From Promethearchaeota archaeon (GTDB taxonomy: Archaea; Asgardarchaeota; Lokiarchaeia; Sigyniarchaeales; SOKP01), in assembly GCA_004524535.1 (NCBI GenBank), contig SDNY01000018.1, positions 1 to 40,493 of the forward strand: DNA of 40,493 nucleotides, in the 5' to 3' direction. The notes beneath the pieces are model-generated. The model was not told the origin of the DNA, searched no databases, and saw nothing but the letters and a program-made list of their open reading frames with translations. Position 1 is the stretch's first letter. Each line of letters begins with the position of its first letter. A program made the translations under genes and the position numbers. Below, piece after piece: positions 1,957-35,762 of this stretch.

Positions 1957-3138
1957 ATGTATTATGATTATAAAACAATATCGGAGATGACAAATTTGAA
2001 GGAATTTCGATTTAATGAAGGATCACAATTGCCCAATTTTTCACTATCTGAAACAGCAATAACCTCAAGATTTAAACAACTCTCTAATCTACAGAGAAAT
2101 GCAACTTCAAATCATATTTACGATAATGACGATTATTTATCGGATTTATTAAAAGTTTTAAAAATTAAGACGCTTGTTGTCGGTGTTGGTGGAGCAGGAA
2201 ATAATACTGTTTCGAGATTACAAGAAATGGGTTTAGTTGGTACTGAAACTTTAAATATAAATACAGATGCTCACGATTTATATTATTCTAATGCGAAAAA
2301 AAAATTATTAATTGGTAAGGATCAATGCAATGGTACAGGTTCGGGAAATAATCCTCTTATTGGTTCAAAAGCTGCTGAGGAGGATGCTGATCGGTTAAAT
2401 AAAATTCTAAATGCTGATGTTGTATTTTTGACATGTGGATTGGGCGGTGGTACGGGAACTGGAGCGGCACCCATTATTGCGAGAGAAGCAAAAAAAAACA
2501 ATTCCTTGGTGGTAAGTTTTTGTTCAATTCCCTTTAGAAGTGAAGGAAACCAAAGAAGATTAAGGGCGAAATTAGGACTCAAAAAACTTGCCAAATATTC
2601 CGATTCTATTATTCCAATACCTAATGATAATCTATTACAACTGATCCCCAAAGCACCTATTTTAACATGCTTTAAAGTTATGGACGAAGTGTTAGTTAGA
2701 AGCATAAGGGAAATTGTAACTCTTATGAATAACTGCGGATTAATTAACATCGATTTTGCTGATGTAAAAAAAATTCTCGAAAGAACTGGAAATTATCCTT
2801 CTGGTCTAATCGGAATAACTGAAACATTAGGAAATGAACATGATATCATTCATAAGTCAAAATTAGCTATACATAACCCTCTTTTAAAACCAAATACAAA
2901 TGAGGTCGATCGTTGTTTAATTTCAGTTTCAAGCAACCATAAATTATCGTTATCAAATGTCGATAAAATAGTATCAACCATCTCAAATGAAGTTCCTCAG
3001 AACGCAAAAATAAAGTTCGGTGCTAATATGGATCCTAATTTGGATACAAAAATAAGAATTATGGTCTTAGGAAAAGGGCCAATCTCTCCTTATGTAAGAT
3101 CTGCTGTTAATGCTGCTGATGATATTCCCTTTCAATAA
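1957..3138 (+). CDS. ftsZ: Cell-division GTPase FtsZ
   Basis: Tubulin/FtsZ-family GTPase expected to form the division ring. Visible motifs are VVGVGGAGNN (about residues 72-81, nucleotide loop), INTDA near 99, the signature GGGTGTG at about 163-169, and the T7 loop NIDFADVKK from residue 264, which supplies the catalytic aspartate to the next subunit. The NIDFAD form favours FtsZ over CetZ or tubulin. About 70 polar residues precede the GTPase core. The protein stops soon after the C-terminal domain at ADDIPFQ, so there is almost no disordered linker. The ATG at 1957 follows an AT-rich, TATA-like stretch without a ribosome site, suggesting a leaderless transcript. An internal ATG at codon 11 is an alternative start. 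Confidence 0.93.
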   Translation: MYYDYKTISEMTNLKEFRFNEGSQLPNFSLSETAITSRFKQLSNLQRNATSNHIYDNDDYLSDLLKVLKIKTLVVGVGGAGNNTVSRLQEMGLVGTETLNINTDAHDLYYSNAKKKLLIGKDQCNGTGSGNNPLIGSKAAEEDADRLNKILNADVVFLTCGLGGGTGTGAAPIIAREAKKNNSLVVSFCSIPFRSEGNQRRLRAKLGLKKLAKYSDSIIPIPNDNLLQLIPKAPILTCFKVMDEVLVRSIREIVTLMNNCGLINIDFADVKKILERTGNYPSGLIGITETLGNEHDIIHKSKLAIHNPLLKPNTNEVDRCLISVSSNHKLSLSNVDKIVSTISNEVPQNAKIKFGANMDPNLDTKIRIMVLGKGPISPYVRSAVNAADDIPFQ

Positions 3139-3407
3139 ATATTATCTCAGCATTATTATATGAATCTTTATTACTAATTCATTTAAAGAAATAAAAGAAA
3201 TTTTAGGCAGTTTTAAAATGTTAAATGATGATAAAAATAAGTTTAAATATAAAAATTTAGATTGATTTATTAAAGACTTTATGGTTAAAAATTTTAGATT
3301 ATTAATTTTACTTTTACTAATTTCAAAAAATTTAAGATTACTCTTTACCAAGGTAATAAATTAAAATATTTCATAAGAAATAAGAAAATCTTTAGGAGAT
3401 AAAAAAT

Positions 3408-4733
3408 ATGCTACAAAAAGTCCTTATAACTAAAGATGATAAAATAATTTATCGTAGAGAATTTGGAAAAGCTATGGGTGAAGAGGAGCTTAAATTTCTT
3501 TTAATGCAACTGAAAAAGGAGGTAAATTTAGATCTAACAAAAAATTTGGGTAATTATATATCGTTTCAAAATAGACTTTCATATATAATTGAAAGAGATT
3601 TTAATTTATTTTTTATTTTAATATCAGGTTTAGGTGATGAACCTGAAGATATTGAAATTGAGTTAAAAGAATTTAGAAATGAATTTTTAAATATATTTGG
3701 CGAAGTGCTTACAAATACTATAGATAGTTCATTATTAGAATTATTAAATCCTATTGTTGATAAAATCTTTGTAAATCTGAGACCTAAAATATCTCTAATT
3801 GGTTTTTCTGGAGTAGGAAAAACTACAATTTCTAAATTAATTAGAGAAGAAGAGATTCCGACTGTACATGTTCCAACAATTACAGGGAAGAGGTCAATAA
3901 TTAAAATAGGAAAATTACAGTTTATTTTATGGGATTTTGCTGGTCAAGAACAATTCAGCTATTTATGGAATAGTTTCATTGAAGGTTCGGATGCTGCACT
4001 TTTAATTACAGACTCAACTTTAGAAAATGCAGAAAAAAGTAAGTTTTTTATTGAACTTATACATGAGGAAGCGCCTTATGCAAATTCAGCGATTATAGCA
4101 AATAAACAAGATTTGCCTGGTGCCTTAAAACCTGACGAATTGGAAAAAATTCTTGGATTAAAAGCTTATTCTATGGTAGCAATTGACCCTAAAAATCGAG
4201 AAAAAATGATTCGAATTATTTCAGAGATTCTCGCGATAAGTACTGAATCATCACCTTTGTTAAGACCTATATTTGAGAGAGACCTTCTGATTTTAGATGC
4301 TCAGAATGCCTATGACCGGGGCAATTATGATAATGCATTATGTTATTTTGAAAAAATTGCCACTATTTGTCTTGAATTAGGCGATGATTCGCTAGGAAAG
4401 GAATATTACGAGAAGGCTCATAATTTAAGAATACAATTGAGTGAAAATTCATTTCCACCGGCTCAAGTATCCGAAATTCCAGAAGAACCTGAAATGCCGG
4501 AGATAACAGAACCTAATCCTTCACCGACTCAAATATCTGACGATCCAGAAGTATCTTTTGCACCTGAAGTTTTAAAAAACACTGACCCCCTACCAGAATC
4601 ACACGAAAAATTGAAAACATCCACAACATTAGACTCCATTGACGCAATTGAAATACCAGAAAACCTTCAAAACCCTATTGAAAAAAATAAAACTAAAAAA
4701 AGGTTTTTTCATAGAAGAAAAAAAGCTCGTTAA
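3408..4733 (+). CDS. Longin-like domain fused to Arf-like GTPase, TPR-like region and basic tail
   Basis: This 441-residue multidomain protein has an N-terminal part (1-125) that reads as a longin/roadblock-like alpha-beta module. A complete small GTPase follows: P-loop GFSGVGKTT from residue 132, WDFAGQEQ around D176, and NKQDLPGA from N232. The WD.AGQE and NKQDLPGA forms are closest to the Arf/Arl family. Residues about 288-345 resemble one or two TPR helical hairpins (AYDRGNYDNALCYFEKI). A proline/glutamate-rich linker then leads to a very basic C-terminus (KKRFFHRRKKAR) that could contact acidic membranes. An AGGAG site lies 11 bases before the ATG. Asgard genomes are rich in longins and small GTPases, but usually as separate proteins, so the fusion is notable. 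The cellular role is unknown. Confidence 0.85.
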   Translation: MLQKVLITKDDKIIYRREFGKAMGEEELKFLLMQLKKEVNLDLTKNLGNYISFQNRLSYIIERDFNLFFILISGLGDEPEDIEIELKEFRNEFLNIFGEVLTNTIDSSLLELLNPIVDKIFVNLRPKISLIGFSGVGKTTISKLIREEEIPTVHVPTITGKRSIIKIGKLQFILWDFAGQEQFSYLWNSFIEGSDAALLITDSTLENAEKSKFFIELIHEEAPYANSAIIANKQDLPGALKPDELEKILGLKAYSMVAIDPKNREKMIRIISEILAISTESSPLLRPIFERDLLILDAQNAYDRGNYDNALCYFEKIATICLELGDDSLGKEYYEKAHNLRIQLSENSFPPAQVSEIPEEPEMPEITEPNPSPTQISDDPEVSFAPEVLKNTDPLPESHEKLKTSTTLDSIDAIEIPENLQNPIEKNKTKKRFFHRRKKAR

Positions 4734-4962: not shown

Positions 4963-7900
4963 ATGACAAAAAAGACTAAATTTCAGAAGCAAATAACAAC
5001 ACTGACACTTCTTTTAACTATCTTTCTTTCAAGTTTTTTTATGATCTTTCCAATGAAAAAATCTGATTTAGAAACAGATTCTAATCTAATATCTAATGAC
5101 AAAAAAATTGACACTGAGCTTGATACTATTGAAAACATAGAGAGCCCAAGAGCAAGCCTTACGGGAAATGACACATGGTGGCACATAAATTGGAATTATA
5201 GACAGTTAATTACTATTGAAAATCCTTATGATGTAGGTTTTGAAAATTACCCTGCAAAAATTGAATTCAACTATACCGGATTAGTTAATTTAGAAAATGG
5301 AATGAATTCAACTTGCAAAGATATCAGAATTGTGGAAAATGGAGTATTAAGAAAATATTACTTCCAGCAAGATTATCCTACTTCTGAAAACGTAACAGTA
5401 TGGTTTGAAACAGATATAGCTAAAGGGCCAGGGACTGTAGAATATGATACTTATTTGTATTATGGAAATAAGGATGCTAAAATTGATACAACTTATTTTA
5501 TGAACGAGTCCTCTTCAAACTCAGGAGATGCATTTGGAGTAATTAGAAATGGTAATTTTGAATGGGAATACCAAGGGGGAAATAAAATTAATAACTTTTT
5601 TGGTTGGTATTATACAAATAATCCCCCATCAGATCTTTTTGATGTTATAGATACAGAACAGTATGGACCTAGTTATGAACATCGTTTAGTATATTATAAT
5701 GATATAGAATTCCAAGAAAGAGTGCCTGAAGGCAATTATTCATTTAAATGGGGGGATGTCGATGGATATGTTGATGATTCTAAGATAAATCCTAATGGTC
5801 AAGATTATCAAGGAACTCTCTATAGTTATCCTTTTATAATTCCTACTCTAGTCGATGCCGATATTAATGATAAATTATATATTAGTTTTTATGCAAATTT
5901 TAGAAGCTATACTGACCAACCTCAAAATCCCAACGGTTTTAACGTAAGGGTTAGTGATGTTTCCAATTATGGCGCTGGGGGGAGTTCTCCAGGTACATAC
6001 ACAACTTATCATAATTATGAGACAGACAATAAACAAACATCAGACACATTATTGAATCTTATAGAAGGTTCTGGCCCTGCACCTGCTGAAACGAGAGATC
6101 TAACTGAGCCAGGTCCAGACTATTATAATGATGGTGATTTAACAAGATATTTTACTGATTTTGATGTGACTGCCTTGCAAGGAGATTGCGTATTTTTTGA
6201 AGCTTGCACTTATGGACCAGAGGGTGGGAAAAAACGATCTGTTTACGCTCAAATAGATGATATTAAGTTTAACTATGAATTAGATGTAAATTTAGAAACT
6301 GAACCACAAGCAATTCAGACAGAAGTATATGTTATCACTAAAGACGTTGATGGAAGAATTGTACCAAATGCCGAAGTAACACTTGTATCAACTTCCCTTC
6401 CAAGGACACAGTATACAGATGATGGAGGATCCACTCTTTTTTCAAATGTTGGATGGGGAACTTATAATTTTACGGTTAATTATACATTATCTACAGGAAA
6501 GGAAGCAGTAGTTTTTGATAGTACTAAACCAGGAGAAGAAAATTTTATATTTAGTTCAGATGAATCATATTATGATGTTGTACTTATATTAAACATGTCA
6601 ACATATGATTTCGAGATTGTTGATTGGGGTGGAAGACCATTAGATTATGGTTTTGTAAATATAAAGGAAAGTAAGAGTGGAGAATCTCTGGGAAATTTAA
6701 CTCTTGATTCTATAGGAACCGCAACATTTCGTTGGTTAAATGTAAGCAGTTATTATTACGAAATATATTATAATAATACAGATTATGCGGGGATTCCAAT
6801 CAAGTTAAATGAAAGCATTATATATAGATCTGATTATGTAAAAGCAAATGAAAAATTCAAGACTCACACATTTGATGTTAATAAAACAAATATTACGCCA
6901 GGAGGTACAACATTCGAAGTAAATCAATACTTGTATACAAATGGATCAACGAGAGAAATAGGGAATAAGAAAATTATTAATTTCACTGTTATATTAGAAA
7001 ATATGGAGGAGTATCTAACCAATGTTTCCATCTATTATATTAATAAAGCTAACTCAACGGCGGGAAATCTTATTTTCACAGAAATTGATGGATATATACC
7101 TCCCCCTGTTAAGGATGATGTAATAGAAATAACTATAAGAGATCCTCCTGAAGAATGTGCTAATTTGGTGGCTGATAATTATGAAGTTTATGGCCTCTTG
7201 ATCGTTGTGAAGGGTATAAATACGTCAACACCATGTAATGGCAGAATAAAAGTTGATTTAGTCGAAACATGGAATATATATAATAAAACTGCATTGGCAA
7301 GAATGAATATTCGAGTAGAAGATAAAGGAATACCAGTAGATGTTGCCAGAGTATATGTTAAAGATTTAAGTTCTAATTCAATAGTAAATCTTTCATCCTA
7401 CGTTGACAAAGGAGAGGAATTATTAAATAGCGATGGATGGGTATTTGGTAGAATTAATTATTTAATCCCATTTTGGTATATAATTGGAAAAACATATAAT
7501 TTTACAATAAAAATTTCTGGGCAGGATATGGACTTCAATGTGACTGAAACACTTACTGGTGAATGGACGGCACCGGAAGAAATATTATCATGGTATAATT
7601 TAACAATGTCTTACGATGATGGTACACTGAAATTTGATGTTGGAGTAGAAACATTAAATCCACAAACCAAATTTGATAAATATACAATAACTGAAGAAGT
7701 GACATGGAAAGAATTTATCTATGTTAATATATATTATAATTATACAGTTGATGGTATTTCATGGAATCCAATACCATATACGGGGAATGTAAAGATAAGT
7801 TTTAAAACTACTGGGATTGGAAGTAGAGTCTATTATACAAGTACAATGTTAGATGGAGGAGCTGCTGGTTGGCTAACATTTACTCTAAATTCAAGTAAAT

Positions 7901-20021: not shown

Positions 20022-20381
20022 ATGGAAAATAGAGAAAAATTGAGAATTTTTGCTGGTATTTTATTAATAATTTCTACAATAACCCATGTTTCCCAAATAT
20101 TTTTTTATGGAACTGATTGGCATACAATTGGTGCTGCCATTTATGGTTCAGTTTATGCTGTGCTTGGAATTTTACTAATATATTACAGAGAAAAAAAGAT
20201 TGTTGATTTGTTATGCATAATCATTCTCACAATTGGTGGAACCTTAGGATTAATTAGATTTATAATCGTTTTAACAACAGAAAATATTTTTAATGTGTTA
20301 AATCTCTTCCATGTAATTGTAGATATTATCGTAGTACCTATCTGTATTTATTCTTATTTAATATTAAGGGAAAAAGATTAA
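20022..20381 (+). CDS. Small four-helix membrane protein, unknown
   Basis: The 119-residue protein has four predicted TM helices (roughly 9-27, 36-54, 60-82 and 90-113) and short charged loops. The ATG follows a TATA-like ATATAAAACA by about 30 bases without a ribosome site. Its stop is 13 bases from the sulfatase start, so the two may be co-transcribed. No family is recognised. Confidence 0.6.
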   Translation: MENREKLRIFAGILLIISTITHVSQIFFYGTDWHTIGAAIYGSVYAVLGILLIYYREKKIVDLLCIIILTIGGTLGLIRFIIVLTTENIFNVLNLFHVIVDIIVVPICIYSYLILREKD

Positions 20382-20394
20382 GGAAATAATTATT

Positions 20395-21894
20395 ATGAGT
20401 GAAAAGATGAATGTTTTGTTTATTATAACGGATCAGCAACGGGCAGATAGTTTAAGTTGTATGGGAAATCCCGTCTTAAAAACACCTCATATTGATAGTA
20501 TAGCAGAAGGAGGTGTTAAATTCACAAATTATTACTGCAATACACCAATTTGTATGCCAAATAGAGCAAATTTCTTTACAGGAACCTATCCAAGCGTGCA
20601 TGGGACGCGATCAAACGGTATCAATTTAAATCCTAATAGACCCGTAATTTCAGAAATTTTAAGAAAAAGTGGATTTCATACTGTTAGTGTTGGAAAAACA
20701 CATTTTCATTTTTTTAGTCGTCCAACGTCAAGAAAAATAGTTTCATGGGAGAATATAGTCGGATGGTTGCATGGAAACCTTAAAGCTAAAGACTTTCCTA
20801 GCCCTTGGTATGGTTTTAATGAAGTCTATATGACAGCTGGACATGGAGATTTCATGGCAGGTCATTATTCCGAGTGGTTAGAAGAACAGGGATGGAATCA
20901 ACATGAATATGCTTTAGAAAGACCTCTAACTCTGAATGAAAATTACTGTGAAACTGAACTGTCAGAAGAATTATATCCTTCAAGCTATATTACTGATAAA
21001 ACTATTGAATATCTTGAAAGACATGTAAAAGAAGGAAAGAATAATCCGTTCTTCATCCATTGTTCTTACCCCGATCCACACCATCCCGTTTGCCCCCCTG
21101 GAAAATATAGAGATTTATATAAACCAGATGATATTGAGTTACCTTCTAATTTTGATGACGTAAAAAATTTACTAAACCATGAATTTTTAGGACCTCATAT
21201 AAAAGATGCACGTTTCCGGCAGTTATTACCCCAAATAGTGACAAGAGACGAAGCAAAGATATTCACAGCTCTAACCTATGGCTCTATTGCTATGATTGAT
21301 GATGGAGTGGGAAAAATCTTAGCTAAATTAAAAGAATTAGATTTAAATAATGATACAATGGTTATTTTTACTAGCGATCATGGTGATTACGGCGGTGATC
21401 ATGGTTTTCTACTAAAAGGACCTGCACATTATCGAGGCATTATTAATATGCCTTTGTTATGGAGAATTCCAGGAGTAACAGAAACTTCTACCTCAGATTC
21501 TCTAATTAGTACAGTAGATCTACCAAAAACCATTCTTAACTTATTAAAGATTCACCCAAAATTTCATCCTAGGGTATTTCAAGGTTATGATGCTACTCCA
21601 ATTTTGAAAGATCCCTCTGTTAAAATAAGAGATCGAGTACTTATAGAGCATGATGAAGAAATAGCTAAAGATAAAATTATACGCCTCCGAACCTTAGTTA
21701 CTGAAAAGCATAGACTAACAATTTACGATGGGCACGATAATCTTGGCGATATTTTTGATTATAAAAATGATCCAGATGAAGTCAATAACTTATGGAATAC
21801 AGATAAAGAATTAAGGAATAAACTTTGTGAAGAGCTTTTAAGAGAAATCATTAGAGTCCGACCAAGATTTCCTAAAAGAAATGCTTATAATTAA
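20395..21894 (+). CDS. Sulfatase-family hydrolase with formylglycine motif
   Basis: A 499-residue member of the alkaline phosphatase superfamily, type I sulfatase branch. The N-terminus has the metal-binding IITDQQRADSL with D13. The signature CMPNR (C53-x-P-x-R57) is the motif whose cysteine is oxidised to formylglycine. GKTHFHF near 95 and TSDHGDYGGDHG near 325 supply further active-site and metal residues. There is no signal peptide, so the enzyme is probably cytosolic. Substrates could be sulfate esters or phosphonate/phosphate diesters; the motif alone does not decide. It follows a small membrane protein by 13 bases. No formylglycine-generating enzyme or anSME maturase is present in the window. 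Confidence 0.88.
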   Translation: MSEKMNVLFIITDQQRADSLSCMGNPVLKTPHIDSIAEGGVKFTNYYCNTPICMPNRANFFTGTYPSVHGTRSNGINLNPNRPVISEILRKSGFHTVSVGKTHFHFFSRPTSRKIVSWENIVGWLHGNLKAKDFPSPWYGFNEVYMTAGHGDFMAGHYSEWLEEQGWNQHEYALERPLTLNENYCETELSEELYPSSYITDKTIEYLERHVKEGKNNPFFIHCSYPDPHHPVCPPGKYRDLYKPDDIELPSNFDDVKNLLNHEFLGPHIKDARFRQLLPQIVTRDEAKIFTALTYGSIAMIDDGVGKILAKLKELDLNNDTMVIFTSDHGDYGGDHGFLLKGPAHYRGIINMPLLWRIPGVTETSTSDSLISTVDLPKTILNLLKIHPKFHPRVFQGYDATPILKDPSVKIRDRVLIEHDEEIAKDKIIRLRTLVTEKHRLTIYDGHDNLGDIFDYKNDPDEVNNLWNTDKELRNKLCEELLREIIRVRPRFPKRNAYN

Positions 21895-22231: not shown

Positions 22232-23320
22232 ATGATTGTAAATGAAGAACATAGAGCAGATTTGATAAAATTGGCTAAAGAATACAAAAATTCTGCGCAA
22301 TCTTATCCGGCAGATGAAAATGGGGAGCCGAAAAAGGCTTACCTTGAATATTTAAGCTTAATGTGGGATCCAGAACTCGTGAAAATAATGCTGGAACTTC
22401 CTATTATGCCTAAATTATTAGCTATAAGAAAATTAGCAAAAACATTAAATATTGATAAAAATAAATTAAAGGCTAAGTTGGAAGAGCCTGCAAAAAGAGG
22501 ATTTGTAGTTAGAGTAGGAAATCTTTATGCTCGTCCTTCTCCTTTACAGATCCATGATATGCCGTTTATTCTTCAAAAGAATCTGGATCGGGAGGATGTT
22601 GTGAAATTTGCTAATTTAAGTAGAGAATATTTTGATGGTGGTTATTATAAAACCTGGGAGACTAGTAGATCCGGGATTCCTCGCACCAGAGTTTTAACAG
22701 TACAAGAAAAAATAGAACCTAGTCAGGAAATTATTCCTATAGAAGCTGTTTATGAAGTAATTGATGGTCAAACAGATATTGCACTTTTTCCTTGTCCTTG
22801 CCGTTCTAGAAGGGAAATCGAGGGAAATAGAAAATGTAAAGGAAAATATCCAATTAATAATTGTATTACTTTTGGAGTTTTTGCCAAAGCATTGTTAGAG
22901 ATGGGAGATCCGGCGATAAAAGCTATAACAAAAGAAGAAGCAAAAAAAATTACAAATGAAGCTAACGAACTTGGGCTTGTTCATATGTCAGATAATAATG
23001 CTCCTAACGCTCATATTCTTTGTCAATGCTGTGAGTGTTGTTGTGGAAATTTAGCTGGATTGACAAGATTAGATAATCCTAGATGTATAGCAAGAGCAAA
23101 TTATATCTCTAGTATTGATGAAGATTTATGTGTTGCGTGTGGAACTTGTATTGAGAGATGCAAGTTTGATGCTATTAAAGTTGAGGAATTTGCACAGATT
23201 AATCCCGATAAGTGTGTGGGGTGTGGACTATGCGCTGTAACATGCCCCGAAAATGCAATTACTATGAAAAGATTTGAAAGAGAAGATATTCCCGCAAGAA
23301 GGGAATGGTCAGAAACATAG
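22232..23320 (+). CDS. Iron-sulfur protein: N-terminal helical domain, cysteine-rich middle, two C-terminal 4Fe-4S clusters
   Basis: The 362-residue protein begins with a helical, winged-helix-like region (to about 110: ALAIRKLAKTLNI...EPAKRGFVVRVGNLYAR). A middle domain carries CPCRSRR (C188, C190) and CQCCECCCGN near 265, a cysteine-rich motif typical of a family of multi-cluster ferredoxins in anaerobes. The C-terminus has two classical ferredoxin motifs: C300-x2-C303-x2-C306-x3-C310 and CVGCGLCAVTCP about 25 residues later. It should carry electrons, probably to the reductase-like proteins encoded downstream on the same strand. An AGAGGT site lies about 15 bases before the ATG. Confidence 0.82.
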   Translation: MIVNEEHRADLIKLAKEYKNSAQSYPADENGEPKKAYLEYLSLMWDPELVKIMLELPIMPKLLAIRKLAKTLNIDKNKLKAKLEEPAKRGFVVRVGNLYARPSPLQIHDMPFILQKNLDREDVVKFANLSREYFDGGYYKTWETSRSGIPRTRVLTVQEKIEPSQEIIPIEAVYEVIDGQTDIALFPCPCRSRREIEGNRKCKGKYPINNCITFGVFAKALLEMGDPAIKAITKEEAKKITNEANELGLVHMSDNNAPNAHILCQCCECCCGNLAGLTRLDNPRCIARANYISSIDEDLCVACGTCIERCKFDAIKVEEFAQINPDKCVGCGLCAVTCPENAITMKRFEREDIPARREWSET

Positions 23321-23408
23321 AATCCGATAAGTTTAAAAAAATATTGAAAAAAATATTATTTAAATCTTACTTAAAATATAACAAAATAAGTAAAAGAGGT
23401 TAAAAAAT

Positions 23409-23921
23409 ATGAAAATATTGGTATGTTATTTTTCCGGAACTGGAAATACTAAAAAGGTGGCTGAATCAATTAAAGAAGGATTAGAAGGGCAAGAAGTGGA
23501 TCTTCAAAAAATAAAAGATGTAGATCCTGCCGAGATTGGTAAATATGATCTTGTTATTTTAGGCTCTGGTATTTATGGAGGAATGGTTAGTAAAAACATT
23601 TTTACAATGATGAAGAAAATTACAGAATTCCCTCCAAAAGTAGCCTTTTTCAACACACATTCGAGTCCAATGAGTTACAGCAAAAAAGCGTACAAGAGAA
23701 TAATAAAAAAGTTCGAAACTGAAGGATCAAAAGTTGTTGGAAATTTCGAATGTATTGGTGAAAATATTGGTGTACCTAAAGAAGTTCAAGAAAATATGTT
23801 GTCTAATTTACCTCCAGAGGAACAAGAAAAACAAAGAAAGCGTTTGGAAGAGATTAAGGGTCGTCCAAACGCAGAAGATCTTGAAAATGCTAAGGAGTTT
23901 GCTAAATCGATTATAGAATAA
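23409..23921 (+). CDS. Flavodoxin-like FMN protein
   Basis: The 170-residue protein starts with YFSGTGNTKKVAESI, the flavodoxin FMN-phosphate loop, and continues with GSGIYGGMVSKNI and FFNTHSSPMSYS, which line the isoalloxazine site. It is a single-domain electron carrier. The C-terminal helix is highly charged. It has its own AGAGGT ribosome site and ends 16 bases before the first QueG/RdhA-like gene, so it is the natural candidate to reduce that enzyme. Confidence 0.88.
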   Translation: MKILVCYFSGTGNTKKVAESIKEGLEGQEVDLQKIKDVDPAEIGKYDLVILGSGIYGGMVSKNIFTMMKKITEFPPKVAFFNTHSSPMSYSKKAYKRIIKKFETEGSKVVGNFECIGENIGVPKEVQENMLSNLPPEEQEKQRKRLEEIKGRPNAEDLENAKEFAKSIIE

Positions 23922-23937
23922 CCTTGGAAATAGAATA

Positions 23938-25080
23938 ATGAAAACAATTAATGAAAAAACAGAAGAAATTTCAATTGAAGAACAGATAAAATCCTTAGCA
24001 AGAGCAGAAGGAGCTGCTTTGGTTGGCATTTGTTCAGCAGATAGTATTAAAGATAAAGAATTTTCAGACTCTAATTATTTATTACCGGGAGCTAAATCAG
24101 TAATAAGCATTGGAGTTAATATGGATGACGAGATTGTTAGAAAATATTTATCCAAAGAAGATTATTTATCTCTATGTGAAGAAGAAGGGCATCTCACTAA
24201 AGATTTACTTAGAATAGGAGAAAAAATTAAGAAATTTTTAGAAGAGAAAGGATTTAAAGCTTATCGATGTCAGGTCAATTTTAACTATCGAAATGTTAAC
24301 ACTTCAGGTAAGGCAGCTATCCCCGCAATTCGAAATCTAATTGAATTAATTAATAAAGAAAAAGATCAAACAACGAAATTAACTCAAAAAGATGAAAAAT
24401 CTCTTATTTTTTTAAAAAAAGCGATACTTCCTGCATTAAAGAATACCCCCATGCATTTAGTTCCCAATTTTTCACATAGGTGTGCTGCAGTAGCTGCAGG
24501 ATTAGGCCGTATAGGTTGGAGTGGAAATGTAATTACGGAAAAATATGGTGCAAGAGTTTTATTCAACTCCATATTAACTGAAGCAGAACTAAAACCAGAT
24601 CCTTCTATGGAAAATAATCCTTGCGTAAACTGTAAACTCTGTGAAAAATCCTGTCAAGGAGGGCTTTTTGCAAGAGATGAATCAGAATCAGTGAAAATCG
24701 CCGATGTAGAGGAAACCATTGCCAAGAGAAATAATTATGCTTATTGCATTGCCATTTGTAGTGGTATGGCAGGTCAGAATAAGTTTAAAGAGTGGTCCAC
24801 TTGGTCTCCATTTCGTTTTGATGATATTGAAAGACTTCCATTAGATGATTCTGTGGTCGATTATGTTAAAAATATGTTTGCTAAAGCTATTGAAAAAGGG
24901 GGCAAAGAAGCTGAAAATGTTCTTAGATTAGTCGAAAACACTTTTCTGGGACGTAATGATAAGCCTCCAGAAGATTTTAGACCGAGCTGTGGGTTTTGTC
25001 AATTGGTATGTGGACCCACAATGCAAGATAAAAAAGAAAGCTATAAATTAATTATAGAATCTGGATGTGTAAATGAATAA
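23938..25080 (+). CDS. Reductive-dehalogenase/QueG-like iron-sulfur protein, copy 1
   Basis: The 380-residue soluble protein resembles the corrinoid-binding plus ferredoxin region shared by reductive dehalogenases and epoxyqueuosine reductase. The fold marker AAVAAGLGRIGWSGNVITEKYGARV (about residues 182-205) corresponds to the GLGxxGxSG...YG.R segment of those enzymes. One cluster motif is C229-x2-C232-x2-C235-x3-C239. A second set of cysteines is C270-x3-C274 with C351-x2-C354-x3-C358. There is no TAT signal and no membrane-anchor subunit, unlike respiratory RdhA. It lies between the flavodoxin and DUF169 genes. A paralogue follows two genes later. The substrate is unknown, and cobalamin binding is inferred from homology. 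Confidence 0.75.
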   Translation: MKTINEKTEEISIEEQIKSLARAEGAALVGICSADSIKDKEFSDSNYLLPGAKSVISIGVNMDDEIVRKYLSKEDYLSLCEEEGHLTKDLLRIGEKIKKFLEEKGFKAYRCQVNFNYRNVNTSGKAAIPAIRNLIELINKEKDQTTKLTQKDEKSLIFLKKAILPALKNTPMHLVPNFSHRCAAVAAGLGRIGWSGNVITEKYGARVLFNSILTEAELKPDPSMENNPCVNCKLCEKSCQGGLFARDESESVKIADVEETIAKRNNYAYCIAICSGMAGQNKFKEWSTWSPFRFDDIERLPLDDSVVDYVKNMFAKAIEKGGKEAENVLRLVENTFLGRNDKPPEDFRPSCGFCQLVCGPTMQDKKESYKLIIESGCVNE

Positions 25081-25159
25081 AAATCCCAATTAAAAATAAA
25101 TCTAAATTAATTTTTTCCTTATTTTAATTAAAATATACAGAAAGCGAGTCTGAGATAAA

Positions 25160-25984
25160 TTGGATGATTTAGAAAAATATAAGAAAATTGGAAAAGAATT
25201 GATGGATAAATTGAAACTTCTAACTTATCCCGTTGCTGTAAGGTTAGTACCTCCAGATGAAGAAGTTTCTACAAACGCACTTCGACCTCATAAAGTTTTT
25301 GGTTCAGAAGTTCCAGCTTGTTTAACTTATACTTGGTGTAGACGATCCGGATTTTCTTTTTTCTTAAAAGGTGAAGATATTGCATGTAAACCTGCCTCTA
25401 TACGCTATTTTGGTTTAGAAGAAACTTCTAATCCGGATGATGTTTTTATAGCATGGGAAAAGAAGGCAGGATACAAAAGAAATGGAGAAGCAGAGAAAAG
25501 ATCTCGTGAATTAGATGCAGTTTTAAAACCAGGAGAAATTAAAGGGATTATAATTTCCCCTTTAAATCTGACTATTGTTAAACCGCACTTGGTTATGATC
25601 TTCTGTACACCATTAATCCTTTCGCATTTGATTTTAGCCTATTGTTATGATGGAGATCACATTACTAGTCATTTTAATGGAATGGAATCTTCTTGCAAGG
25701 AAGGTATTATTAGAACTTTTAAGACCAAGCAGTGTCAAGTAGTTTCACCTGGTATGGGGGATCGTGTGATGGCAGGAGTTCAAGACAATGAGATGCTCTT
25801 CTCCATTCCGGAGAGTAAAATCGAACTCGTGGTTAATAATCTATTTAAAGCAGGAAGTAAACTTCCAATGCCTGCTTTTGGAATTCCTCATTTAAATGCT
25901 AGTCTTGGTCCAATTTCTATATATGGATCCCCTGTTGAGCCAGGAGTTTGGCCATTATTAAGAAAAAAAATAAAAAAGGAGTGA
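25160..25984 (+). CDS. DUF169-family protein
   Basis: The 274-residue protein starts at TTG (no in-frame ATG fits) and resembles DUF169, a family of unknown function seen in anaerobes and methanogens. Recognisable parts are LTYPVAVRLVPPDEE near the start, PACLTYTWCRRSG around 55, and a C-terminal half with GDRVMAGVQDNEMLFSIPESK. No TM segments or known cofactor motif are visible. It sits between two paralogous reductase-like genes, and only five bases separate it from the second, so a shared pathway is likely. Confidence 0.72.
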   Translation: MDDLEKYKKIGKELMDKLKLLTYPVAVRLVPPDEEVSTNALRPHKVFGSEVPACLTYTWCRRSGFSFFLKGEDIACKPASIRYFGLEETSNPDDVFIAWEKKAGYKRNGEAEKRSRELDAVLKPGEIKGIIISPLNLTIVKPHLVMIFCTPLILSHLILAYCYDGDHITSHFNGMESSCKEGIIRTFKTKQCQVVSPGMGDRVMAGVQDNEMLFSIPESKIELVVNNLFKAGSKLPMPAFGIPHLNASLGPISIYGSPVEPGVWPLLRKKIKKE

Positions 25985-25989
25985 AAAAA

Positions 25990-27117
25990 ATGGATTTAAT
26001 AGAACTTAAAGAAAATATAAAAATAATAGCTCTCGATTCAGGAGCGAATTTATTTGGTGTTGGGAGTCGAGAAAGACTTGAAGGTAATCCTCCTTCTGCT
26101 GATATGGATTATTCTCTTCCTAGAGCTCAGAGTTGTATTATTTGGGCATATCCAAATGATATTGAAGCATTAGAAAATTATTTCTCTAAGAAAGAAAGAT
26201 GGAGCATTAAAGTATTACAAGACTTAGGTTATGCAACTGGTTGGAGAACTGCTCAACAGATTGCTAAGTTTATAGAAGATAATACTGATTATAAGGCTCA
26301 TCCAATAATTCCGAATGGAAAATATAGAGGTGGTATTGGTAGTGCAATGAAAAATGCAGAATCCTTCCCACCGTTCTCACTTCGGTATGGCGCTGTTGCT
26401 GCAGGACTTGGTCATCTTGGATGGTCTGGAAATCTTGTTAGTAAAGAATATGGAGGTTCATTATACTTAGATGGGGTTCTTACAACCGCACCCCTCGAAG
26501 CAGACCCTATGGCAGAAGAAAATAATTGTAATCAATGTAAAATTTGCCAGAAAGTGTGTACTACGGGATATGTAGCCAAGGAAGAACCTGAGGAACGACA
26601 ACCCGTAGTTATTGGAGGAGTAAAGCAAACTTATGGAAAGAGAGGTACATACATGAGATGTGGAGTAGGATGTGCGGGGTTTACTGGATTGTCGGAAGAT
26701 GCAACATGGAGTACATGGACAGCAGACCATACATGCTTAAAAAAGATCCCCGATAAGGATTTAACAAGAGGATACATGCGAAATTTAGTGCAACAATTAA
26801 TGTCTGGAAGGGAAACACCCCGACAATTACGTAAATTTAATCAAAGAATTGCAGCCTCCTTTGCTAAAGTGGGGAAATCAGAAAATGTTGGGCTACGACC
26901 AATTGAAGATACGAACCCTCGCTGTGGAAACTGTAATTTTATTTGTGTCGCGGATCCTAAGAAAAGAGCAGAACTTTATAAAATGTTAAAAACTTCAGGA
27001 ATAATGTATCTCGACGATAAAGGTCGAGAATACGTGAAAAAAATAGATGAAAATGGAAAAGAAATAATATATTATCCTCCAACATGGGAGGAATATAAAA
27101 AAGAAAAGGGGATTTGA
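25990..27117 (+). CDS. Reductive-dehalogenase/QueG-like iron-sulfur protein, copy 2
   Basis: Paralogue of the reductase-like gene two positions upstream. With the start at 25990 it has 375 residues. The corrinoid-region marker is AAVAAGLGHLGWSGNLVSKEYG-like (here GAVAAGLGHLGWSG). The first cluster is C180-x2-C183-x2-C186-x3-C190. The second set is C224-x3-C228 plus C312-x2-C315-x3-C319, the same spacing as in copy 1. The track start at 25948 overlaps the DUF169 gene. AAAGGAG ends nine bases before the ATG at 25990 and decides the start. There is no signal peptide. It is followed after seven bases by the metallo-beta-lactamase gene, indicating one operon. Confidence 0.77.
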   Translation: MDLIELKENIKIIALDSGANLFGVGSRERLEGNPPSADMDYSLPRAQSCIIWAYPNDIEALENYFSKKERWSIKVLQDLGYATGWRTAQQIAKFIEDNTDYKAHPIIPNGKYRGGIGSAMKNAESFPPFSLRYGAVAAGLGHLGWSGNLVSKEYGGSLYLDGVLTTAPLEADPMAEENNCNQCKICQKVCTTGYVAKEEPEERQPVVIGGVKQTYGKRGTYMRCGVGCAGFTGLSEDATWSTWTADHTCLKKIPDKDLTRGYMRNLVQQLMSGRETPRQLRKFNQRIAASFAKVGKSENVGLRPIEDTNPRCGNCNFICVADPKKRAELYKMLKTSGIMYLDDKGREYVKKIDENGKEIIYYPPTWEEYKKEKGI

Positions 27118-27124
27118 GAGAAAA

Positions 27125-28411
27125 ATGAAAATGTCAACCGAAATAGCAAATGCGATGATGGGAAATACACCCGCCATAACTTTTGCAGAAGGCACTTGCC
27201 ATATTATACCTGCTTTTGGGAATATGGGCGTTTTAGAATCGGATGAGGGATTATTAATTTTTGATACTCCGATTAGACCAATGGCACGGGGAGCATTTCG
27301 TAAGCTAAGAGAAATCACTGATAAGCCAGTTAAATATATCATTTATTCCCATGGACATATAGATCACGCATATGGATTTGGACCAATCATACAAGAAGCA
27401 GAGGAAAAAAGCTGGGAAATGCCTTTAGTAATAGCGCATGAAAATTGCGTGGAGAGATTTAAAAAATACCGCATGCTGGATAAATATCACGAGTGGTTAA
27501 ATCAACAGCAATTCTCATCTTTAACTAAAGGGAAAGGAAAAATTTTTCCCGCTCATGATGAATTAGAACCAAATATAGTAATTAAAGGAAAAGATGTTTA
27601 TAAATTTAAATTTGGGGATTATGATTGCGAGATATATCACGATTGGGGAGAAACTGACGATGCGATTTGGTTATGGGTTCCAGAAAAAAAAGTAATCTTC
27701 GCAGGAGACCTCATGGTAAGCCACTTTCCAAATGTAGGTAATCCATATAAAGTTCAGAGATATCCAAAACATTGGGCTTTAGCAATGGAAAAAATGATGG
27801 AAAAAAATGCTGAATATTTATTACCCGGACATGGCCTCCTAATAGAAGGAAAAGAAAAAGTCAAAGAAGTATTATCTATTACAGCAGAAGCATTAAATTT
27901 CGTTCATGATGAAGTAGTAAAGAGAATGAATGAAGGCAAATGGTTTGAACAAATTTTTCACGAATTACTTGAGATTTTTCCAGAACATTTGAAAAAGCAC
28001 AAGAATTTACGCCCTCTATATGGTTGCTTCGAATTTGCCATACATGCGGTATACAGAGAATATCATGGATGGTATAACACAGGTAATCCTACGGATCTTT
28101 TCCCAGCAAAATCTCAAGATGTAGCAAAAGAATTTTTGAAAGTTGCGAATGAAGAAAAGTTTTTAGAACAAGCCAAGAAGAATTTAGAAGAAGGTAAATT
28201 ACAACTTGCATTGCATTTGATAGACGTGATAATTAAAGGAACAGATCCCGAGAACTATGAACTCCTATTAGAAGCTTATTCTTTAAAAAGCAATATCTTA
28301 AAAAAATTATCTGACGAACAAACATCTTTTATTGCTTCAAATATAATTGCTAATGGCGCAACAGTTCTAAAACCATTAATTAGAGAATTAAAGAAAAAAG
28401 TAAGAAAATAA
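27125..28411 (+). CDS. Alkylsulfatase-like metallo-beta-lactamase-fold hydrolase
   Basis: The 428-residue protein has an MBL core: SHGHIDH with H76, H78, D80 and H81, FAGDLM near 195 and PGHG near 237. The middle region includes YREYHGWYNTGNP, close to the GWYDGNP-type motif of the BDS1/SdsA1 alkyl sulfatase family, followed by a helical dimerisation-like part (KNLEEGKLQLALHLID) as in that family. Members cleave alkyl sulfates with a two-zinc site. It starts seven bases after the second reductase-like gene and ends at a T-tract, so it appears to close the cluster. The true substrate could differ; other MBL hydrolases share the core. Confidence 0.82.
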   Translation: MKMSTEIANAMMGNTPAITFAEGTCHIIPAFGNMGVLESDEGLLIFDTPIRPMARGAFRKLREITDKPVKYIIYSHGHIDHAYGFGPIIQEAEEKSWEMPLVIAHENCVERFKKYRMLDKYHEWLNQQQFSSLTKGKGKIFPAHDELEPNIVIKGKDVYKFKFGDYDCEIYHDWGETDDAIWLWVPEKKVIFAGDLMVSHFPNVGNPYKVQRYPKHWALAMEKMMEKNAEYLLPGHGLLIEGKEKVKEVLSITAEALNFVHDEVVKRMNEGKWFEQIFHELLEIFPEHLKKHKNLRPLYGCFEFAIHAVYREYHGWYNTGNPTDLFPAKSQDVAKEFLKVANEEKFLEQAKKNLEEGKLQLALHLIDVIIKGTDPENYELLLEAYSLKSNILKKLSDEQTSFIASNIIANGATVLKPLIRELKKKVRK

Positions 28412-34313: not shown

Positions 34314-35762
34314 TTGGCACGTCCTAGCCCTTTGGACATTTATAGCTTACTCGACAGGAGTAATTGTGGTGATTGTGGCTACGCAACATGCATGGCGTTT
34401 GCCACAGATCTCTTAGAAAGAAAAGTTACATTAGAAGATTGTACTCATCTTATGCAACAACCAAAGCAAGCTAAAAACCTTGCAAAATTAAGAGAAATTA
34501 CAACTCCTCCACAGAAACCAGTAATTATTGGTGTAGGTGAGCGAGCTTGTATTTGCGGCGGAGAAGAGGTCCTTATGAGGCATCAACTTACATATTACAA
34601 TGAAACAGCTATTTTTATGGAAATTGCGGACGATAATCCTGATTTAGAAGAAATTATAAAGTATTTAACTGATTTAAAACTTGAAAGAATGGGAGATGTC
34701 CTTAGAATTAATGGTATTGCATTGAGATGTGTTTCTGGAGACCTTGACCAATTTAAACTCGCTGCGAAGAAAATTTCAGAGATAACGGATCTTCCAATTA
34801 TGTTATGTTGTATAATGAATCCAGAGATCTTACTAGCTGGTGCCACTGAAATAAAAGATAAAAAGCCTTTATTATATGGAGCAACTAAAGATTCATGGGA
34901 ACAAGTTGGAACATTTGCCGTACAAAATAATTTACCAATTGTGGCTGTATCAAGTGATTTGGATGAATTGATTTCTTTAAGTGCGACCTTACAGAAATTA
35001 GGCGCAAAAGAAATCGTTTTAGATCCGGGAACCTTCTTTGGACCTGGTAAATTAGCATTTACTTACGATAATATTCTACAATTACGAAATGCTGCTATTG
35101 ATAAGGAAGATCCCAACGCTGGTTGGCCAGTAATGGGTGTTCCAGCAGCTTATTGGGTTCAAATGGATACTAGTCAAGGAGATTTATGGACTCATCAATA
35201 TCAAGAGGTTATCATGGGAGCATTAATGGAATCAATTGATACGTCTCTCATTGTATTACATACTGGTAAAAAGAAAGACGATATCTGGGCTTTATTGGCG
35301 TTAATGACTTTACGCCAAAGTGTATTCTCTGATCCACGAATATATCCAACAGCAGATCCTGGTTTAATTCAAATTGGAGAGCCTGGGGATATGGCTCCTA
35401 TTTTTGTTACTTCAAATTATCGATTAACTAAAATTCCTGTCGAGATTGACATTAAAGGAGCCAATCTTGATAGTTGGCTCTTAGTGGTTAATAGCGAAGG
35501 AATCGGGATCGAGTCTGCTGTCGCGGGAGGACAATTTAATGCGACTTCCATAGCTGAAGCTGTACAAGAATTCAAGGCATTTGATAAAGTGAAACATAGA
35601 ATACTAATAATTCCTGGCATGGCTGCTAGATTAAGTGGTGCCCTAGAAGATGAAGCTGATGCTGTTGTATTAGTTGGACCACGAGACAGCTCAGGTATAA
35701 AAAAATTCTATGATACTCGATGGGATCCTGAAAAAGATATGAAAGAGTACGCAGAACGCTGA
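34314..35762 (+). CDS. cdhE: Acetyl-CoA decarbonylase/synthase gamma subunit (corrinoid iron-sulfur protein large subunit)
   Basis: The 482-residue protein carries the methyl group in the Wood-Ljungdahl pathway. The N-terminal cluster motif is C18-x2-C21-x4-C26-x16-C43 (SNCGDCGYATCMAF ... LEDC), binding the low-potential 4Fe-4S cluster. The middle is a TIM-barrel domain (KPVIIGVGERA, LYGATKDSW, LDPGTFFGPGKL). The C-terminal corrinoid-binding part ends with IIPGMAARLSGALEDE and VVLVGPRDSSGI. Starts at TTG with a strong ribosome site. In this window it is alone: no cdhA, B, C or D genes are adjacent, although many archaea cluster them. Confidence 0.95.
   Translation: MARPSPLDIYSLLDRSNCGDCGYATCMAFATDLLERKVTLEDCTHLMQQPKQAKNLAKLREITTPPQKPVIIGVGERACICGGEEVLMRHQLTYYNETAIFMEIADDNPDLEEIIKYLTDLKLERMGDVLRINGIALRCVSGDLDQFKLAAKKISEITDLPIMLCCIMNPEILLAGATEIKDKKPLLYGATKDSWEQVGTFAVQNNLPIVAVSSDLDELISLSATLQKLGAKEIVLDPGTFFGPGKLAFTYDNILQLRNAAIDKEDPNAGWPVMGVPAAYWVQMDTSQGDLWTHQYQEVIMGALMESIDTSLIVLHTGKKKDDIWALLALMTLRQSVFSDPRIYPTADPGLIQIGEPGDMAPIFVTSNYRLTKIPVEIDIKGANLDSWLLVVNSEGIGIESAVAGGQFNATSIAEAVQEFKAFDKVKHRILIIPGMAARLSGALEDEADAVVLVGPRDSSGIKKFYDTRWDPEKDMKEYAER

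Follow-up and report, generated by a model that had tools for sequence, protein, structure and literature searches.

A recurring gene cluster of Lokiarchaeia links sulfate-ester hydrolase homologues and a DUF169 protein with a probable third family of class III corrinoid/iron–sulfur proteins

Class III B12 enzymes have two established reaction types; more families were predicted, and could not be searched for because a motif was lacking (PMC4646009). Cytosolic homologues of the reductive dehalogenases (RDases) have been published in Loki- and Thorarchaea (PMC6737245; PMC8072921), and PMC8072921 also mentions a cluster of Asgard Rdh proteins without the dehalogenase domain, possibly related to the genes described here. 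Single-cell genomes of marine Desulfatiglans carry rdhA as well as sulfatases, and use of both sulfate esters and organohalides was proposed (PMC6129605). Our literature searches, which combined reductive dehalogenases with arylsulfatases and Lokiarchaeia with sulfatases and also covered DUF169, returned no described system, and a linked sulfatase–reductase–DUF169 locus was not found in the literature searched.

We analysed a window of 40,493 nucleotides (contig SDNY01000018.1, positions 1 to 40,493), which is one contig of a Promethearchaeota MAG of 3.66 Mb and 99% completeness, with Lokiarchaeota MAGs as its close matches. The locus of interest comprises six ORFs on the forward strand, termed A to F (22232–28411; Table 1), and, as argued below, a sulfatase gene, S. 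We read it as a catabolic island whose cytosolic enzymes break down sulfate-esterified organic compounds, with reductive removal of a substituent by E, and give this reading a probability of roughly 45%.

Table 1. Genes of the cluster, in window coordinates.
Feature	Coordinates	Strand	Evidence or remark
Small membrane protein, 119 aa	20022..20381	+	directly 5' of sulfatase S; possible module part
S, arylsulfatase-type (formylglycine type)	20395..21894	+	PF00884 3e-45
A, iron–sulfur protein, 362 aa	22232..23320	+	PF00037, PF14697
B, flavodoxin	23409..23921	+	PF12641 3e-20
C, class III cobalamin/[4Fe-4S] reductase homologue, sub-clade C	23938..25080	+	profile homology to QueG and PceA
D, DUF169 protein	25160..25984	+	PF02596 5e-34; TTG start
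E, class III cobalamin/[4Fe-4S] reductase homologue, sub-clade E	25990..27117	+	ATG start
F, alkylsulfatase-like metallo-beta-lactamase	27125..28411	+	PF00753, PF14863 1e-22

The six same-strand genes had been recognized in an earlier sequence-only reading, and both the ORFs and their Pfam and NCBIfam matches confirm them. Spacings of 5–16 bases, claimed there for several pairs, hold for three of the five gaps, which measure 88, 16, 79, 5 and 7 bases in order from A to F; the gaps of 79 and 88 bases leave room for internal promoters. A longer alternative TTG start for E lies at 25948 in the ORF listing. S, which that reading did not include, ends 337 bases upstream of A on the same strand. In the congeneric genome G106 the order S-A-B-C-D is kept at 96–99% identity, with E-F on a second contig (94–96% identity), and because S there precedes A-B-C-D in the same order, the module should be extended upstream to S at 20395 and perhaps to the 119-aa membrane protein at 20022. 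A homologue of the latter adjoins the sulfatase at the same position in G106 (contig C183; cluster 76), and a Pfam search with it gave zero matches above cut-off. A second congener, G107, has A-B-C-E-F and lacks S and D. The unit as claimed thus consists of real genes and was drawn too small, its recurrent partner being the arylsulfatase as well as the metallo-beta-lactamase (MBL). Elsewhere in the window we noted an FtsZ/tubulin-family protein and an N-terminally extended Arf-like GTPase (1957–4733); zero RNA families and zero tRNAs were found in the window.

C and E had been described as two paralogous, soluble RdhA/QueG-type proteins, a proposal staked on their folds not proving unrelated to that class, and fold, profile and cysteine evidence all agree with it. 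In a fold search of the PDB with an AlphaFold2 model of E (pLDDT 88.6), all 46 matches at E ≤ 0.001 were RDases or QueG, followed by the B12 chaperone MMACHC; TM-scores of about 0.4 indicate that the core is shared with RDases and QueG while the substrate-facing parts differ. The structure model is that of E, and the fold of C was assigned by homology only. A profile of 38 C/E relatives matched only two RDases (including PceA) and two QueG in the PDB (3e-10 to 2e-8). In an alignment of C and E to six RDases and three sequences of the QueG type, all eight cluster cysteines (C180, C183, C186, C190, C224, C312, C315 and C319) coincided in both proteins, which are about 30% identical to one another. 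Matches to the known subfamilies were weak: partial ones to QueG (TIGR00276, cut-off 200 bits) of 31 bits for C and 42.8 bits for E, and one to the reductive dehalogenases (TIGR02486, cut-off 160 bits) of 24.7 bits for E and none for C. PF13486 was absent from both in a Pfam search, as was a twin-arginine signal, and no RdhB-like ORF was seen beside them in the ORF listing. The earlier view that this is not a classical respiratory dehalogenase therefore stands.

In a phylogenetic tree, C, E and their relatives, 47 sequences in all, grouped in a clade of their own, separate from both RDases and QueG (UFboot 94). The family is invariant at N109, Y112, R113 and R132, which differ from RDases, and at GWSGN, and carries the signature NxxYR...SxRY...GWSGN. 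Its members come from Asgards, Desulfobacterota, Dehalococcoidia, Spirochaetes, Actinobacteria and others, and E has orthologues of 55–94% identity in other Loki- and Hela-type MAGs. We consider it very likely that C and E belong to a class III corrinoid enzyme family forming a third clade beside RdhA and QueG, and both would be expected to bind a corrinoid. CobS (PF02654) had zero matches in the 99%-complete MAG, which counts against our reading and implies that corrinoid is obtained by salvage or another route. Several family members (G115:C88:9057-10133, G145:C2:41940-43139 and others) were matched through one to five in-frame stop codons (TAG, TAA, TGA), which marks them as pseudogenes, assembly errors, matches running past the gene end or recoded genes. 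Two further small families of class III-like Fe–S proteins occur in the same islands (L041:5019-5882 and L064:8662-9522), one of these proteins having a 66-bit RDH match.

The active site separates C from E. Tyr81 was present in all 15 E-type members, aligned with the tyrosine of all six RDases; C-type members had Thr or Asn at this position, and bacterial family members A, V, I, T or N. We had considered Tyr81 as family-wide proof of RDase chemistry and dropped it, since it is variable outside the E clade. With their separate sub-clades, and the RDase-aligned tyrosine only in E, the two proteins are probably not interchangeable. Another family member lay within 2 kb of 7 of the 12 C-type genes, and a two-component arrangement of C and E is possible.

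As the family invariants N109, Y112, R113 and R132 are unlike those of RDases, the chemistry may not be dehalogenation. C and E might instead work in a desulfation pathway and cleave a C–O bond, be it by opening an epoxide, by reductive dehydroxylation or by cleaving an ether. Within the class, QueG is an enzyme that reduces an epoxide, and the authors of that work expected further chemistries (PMC4646009); the NxxYR...SxR invariants of the active site differ from QueG as well as from RDases; and genes for SDRs, acyl-CoA ligases and acyl-CoA dehydrogenases occur close to relatives of C and E, an oxygenated-substrate setting. The tyrosine at the RDase position, kept in every E member, speaks against such an activity, which we regard as somewhat unlikely.

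Reductive removal by E, as in our preferred reading, would be preceded by hydrolysis. S was assigned to the formylglycine sulfatases on PF00884, its CxPxR motif (C53-M-P-N-R) and a sulfatase-maturase relative, above cut-off, encoded elsewhere in the MAG; it matched the PRK13759 arylsulfatase model at 227 bits, below cut-off, and has no obvious secretion signal. F, of 428 aa, has an HGHIDH motif and an MBL core joined to an Alkyl_sulf_dimr dimerisation domain, and its best PDB match was the sec-alkylsulfatase Pisa1 (7e-21). Its description as an alkylsulfatase-like MBL was right as to the core, the HxHxDH motif and the dimerisation domain; the C-terminal SCP2-like domain of a true alkylsulfatase was not found by Pfam, the protein ending after the dimerisation domain. 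F adjoins E in G106 and G107 and lies near E in other Asgards. Other Lokiarchaea have a sulfatase paired with an F-type MBL, often with a TauE/SafE-type exporter, a partner to be expected where sulfate is released, and this exporter supports real sulfate-ester hydrolysis. On these family assignments, S and F are predicted to hydrolyse sulfate esters. A paralogue of E in the same MAG (contig C61) adjoins two carboxylesterases, as a copy in G107 also lies beside carboxylesterases; ester hydrolysis beside an E-type reductase is a repeated theme. In two lokiarchaeal loci (L181:4896-12039 and L187:1121-8219) the sulfatase–TauE/SafE–MBL set encloses arsenosugar-biosynthesis-like genes, which encode a radical SAM protein, a methyltransferase and two glycosyltransferase-like proteins (including TIGR04283).

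Two gene products could carry electrons. A, previously called a polyferredoxin, does have ferredoxin modules; the term is imprecise, as the protein combines a two-cluster ferredoxin (two C-terminal [4Fe-4S] modules) with an uncharacterised Cys-rich part. In 15 homologues 18 of its 19 cysteines were invariant, ten of them outside the ferredoxin part. These ten lie in residues 188–271 (window 22795–23050) as CPC, C, C and then CxCCxCCC, and the domain suggests further clusters or a novel cofactor site. B had BilS as its best NCBIfam match, below cut-off. In several Asgard genomes 5–22 bases separate its gene from that of a reductase, and we propose that B is an electron donor to C and E. Ferredoxin A was found in 10 of 40 Asgard reductase loci. 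In one locus (L060), a gene for a glycyl radical enzyme above the cut-off for trans-4-hydroxy-L-proline dehydratase (5502–7862) lies some 1.4 kb away from a family member and from ferredoxin A.

D is a secure member of DUF169 (PF02596; 118 bits against a gathering score of 27), with C54, C76, C179, R61, D73 and E112 invariant in the alignment. It had zero relatives in the PDB by sequence, and a fold search with its model (pLDDT 78) gave no PDB match better than E 0.4. Our guess is that D is an accessory protein, maybe a metal- or cluster-binding partner or a chaperone of C/E. Three tandem DUF169 genes occur in another Lokiarchaeon (L196:7499-10665), not beside this reductase family.

The sequence-only reading had asked whether the gene order recurs and whether DUF169 accompanies these reductases. 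We collected 40 Asgard loci around C/E family members (619 kb in total), which held 18 DUF169, 18 sulfatase, 13 MBL, 13 ferredoxin-A and 9 flavodoxin genes, so that DUF169 does accompany them; a sulfatase was present in 14 of the loci. Expected numbers were about 0.39 for DUF169, 1.2 for sulfatase and 0.32 for alkylsulfatase-type MBL, derived from genome-wide counts in phylum and family searches with densities that are rounded averages. The corresponding Poisson P values (4e-24, 1e-15 and 4e-17) are overstated, as related loci were treated as independent. An excess of 15- to 46-fold across several genera is not chance, given that gene order is kept in two congeners and the partners are enriched in 40 loci. 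Recurrence is thus clear in Asgards, in enrichment and in congener order, and weak in bacteria, where two deltaproteobacterial loci had a sulfatase, two Desulfobacterota loci had ferredoxin A and none of the family loci had DUF169. An SCP2-domain (sterol carrier type) protein is encoded close to the bacterial members in L114, L139 and L144 and hints at lipid-like substrates there. Steroid catabolism, which we considered from bacterial relatives beside SCP2, acyl-CoA dehydrogenase and SDR genes, was set aside, the window offering zero support for it.

Recurrence also bears on whether this is one pathway at all. The cluster might be a loose gathering of catabolic genes from separate pathways, an island of exchangeable functions, as its varying composition would suggest: the G107 copy lacks S and D, and the MBL–sulfatase pair joins other gene sets too. 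Against our own reading, E is found without a sulfatase in several genomes, and the MBL–sulfatase pair occurs without C/E-type reductases. We find a loose gathering improbable, because the same three partners are enriched over tens of loci in different genera, and reductase and partner genes are separated by gaps of 5–22 bases in several genomes.

It is quite improbable that C and E process cobalamin itself, as MMACHC-like proteins or as activators of a corrinoid protein. MMACHC was indeed the next fold match after the class III enzymes, and a gene for a CO dehydrogenase/acetyl-CoA synthase delta-type (CdhD) protein, a conceivable client, lies in the window at 34314–35762. The neighbours of the family are hydrolases, dehydrogenases and ligases, however, not corrinoid proteins, and its patchy spread (45 of 228 genomes), with several divergent copies per genome, fits catabolic specialisation better. 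For C and E, a function as tRNA epoxyqueuosine reductases (QueG) located here by chance is hardly credible despite their partial TIGR00276 matches (31 and 43 bits), and QueG identity was ruled out: scores fall far under the 200-bit cut-off, neither the Asp-Tyr-His motif nor the catalytic Asp is conserved, the clade is separate with several paralogues per genome, and queuosine synthesis is bacterial (PMC4646009).

We return to the catabolic island with reductive removal by E, for which we propose three steps. First, S and F would hydrolyse sulfate esters, exposing free hydroxyls; their families are assigned and their activities predicted from these. Second, E would feed low-potential electrons to a base-off corrinoid by way of its two [4Fe-4S] clusters and strip a substituent, most plausibly a halide, off the unmasked molecule; fold and ligands support this step, from which the chemistry is extrapolated. 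C, whose active site differs, would be a related subunit or a second enzyme that probably acts on another substrate or as a partner, and D would assist C and E. Third, ferredoxin A and flavodoxin B would supply the electrons. We favour, with some reserve, a functional coupling of the reductases to sulfate-ester hydrolysis; a halide as leaving group is a tentative choice. The full proposal, in which C and E are a third class III B12 family that, with a DUF169 partner, removes halides or another leaving group after linked desulfation, is unlikely as a whole.

One candidate class of substrates, offered only as an idea, would need every enzyme: the sulfated bromophenols of marine algae. Lanosol-4,7-disulfate, a major red-alga metabolite, bears two bromines together with one aryl and one alkyl sulfate (PMC9322897); sulfatases for the aryl and the alkyl ester, along with debromination, would be required to break it down, and the gene set is consistent with this. 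The recurring cluster suggests an unknown route for dismantling sulfated, perhaps halogenated, sediment compounds. If this is correct, it would be a cytosolic desulfation–reduction pathway in Asgard archaea, would provide the first context for DUF169, a family with no known function, and would show what becomes of sulfated natural products in abundant sediment Lokiarchaea. The NxxYR...SxRY...GWSGN signature and the strong genomic context make the prediction of further class III families testable.

Compared with known systems, C and E share with RdhA (PceA, NpRdhA; TIGR02486, PF13486) the fold, two [4Fe-4S] clusters and the same eight cysteines, and E has a tyrosine that aligns with the catalytic one. 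They differ in scoring below the RDH cut-off, in lacking PF13486, TAT signal and RdhB, in forming a separate clade and in their own NxxYR and SxR motifs. QueG (TIGR00276), the better NCBIfam match, is likewise soluble with the class III fold and Fe–S chain; unlike it, C and E fall below cut-off, do not conserve the Asp-Tyr-His motif or catalytic Asp, and are linked to sulfatases, not to queuosine genes. The published Asgard RDases (PMC6737245) are different genes that carry PF13486, a domain found in 42 of 65 genomes of the window's family and 0 of 5 of its genus; we ruled out that C and E are these RDases, since both lack PF13486, which belongs to a separate gene elsewhere. F shares the MBL domain, HxHxDH motif and dimerisation domain with SdsA1 and Pisa1, and differs in its length (428 aa against about 650) and in its C terminus, where the SCP2-like domain was not found. 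For Desulfatiglans, an excerpted account (PMC6129605) describes no linkage of rdhA and sulfatases in a single cluster, unlike the present locus; what the two have in common is a sediment organism that combines both functions, and the use proposed for them is the same.
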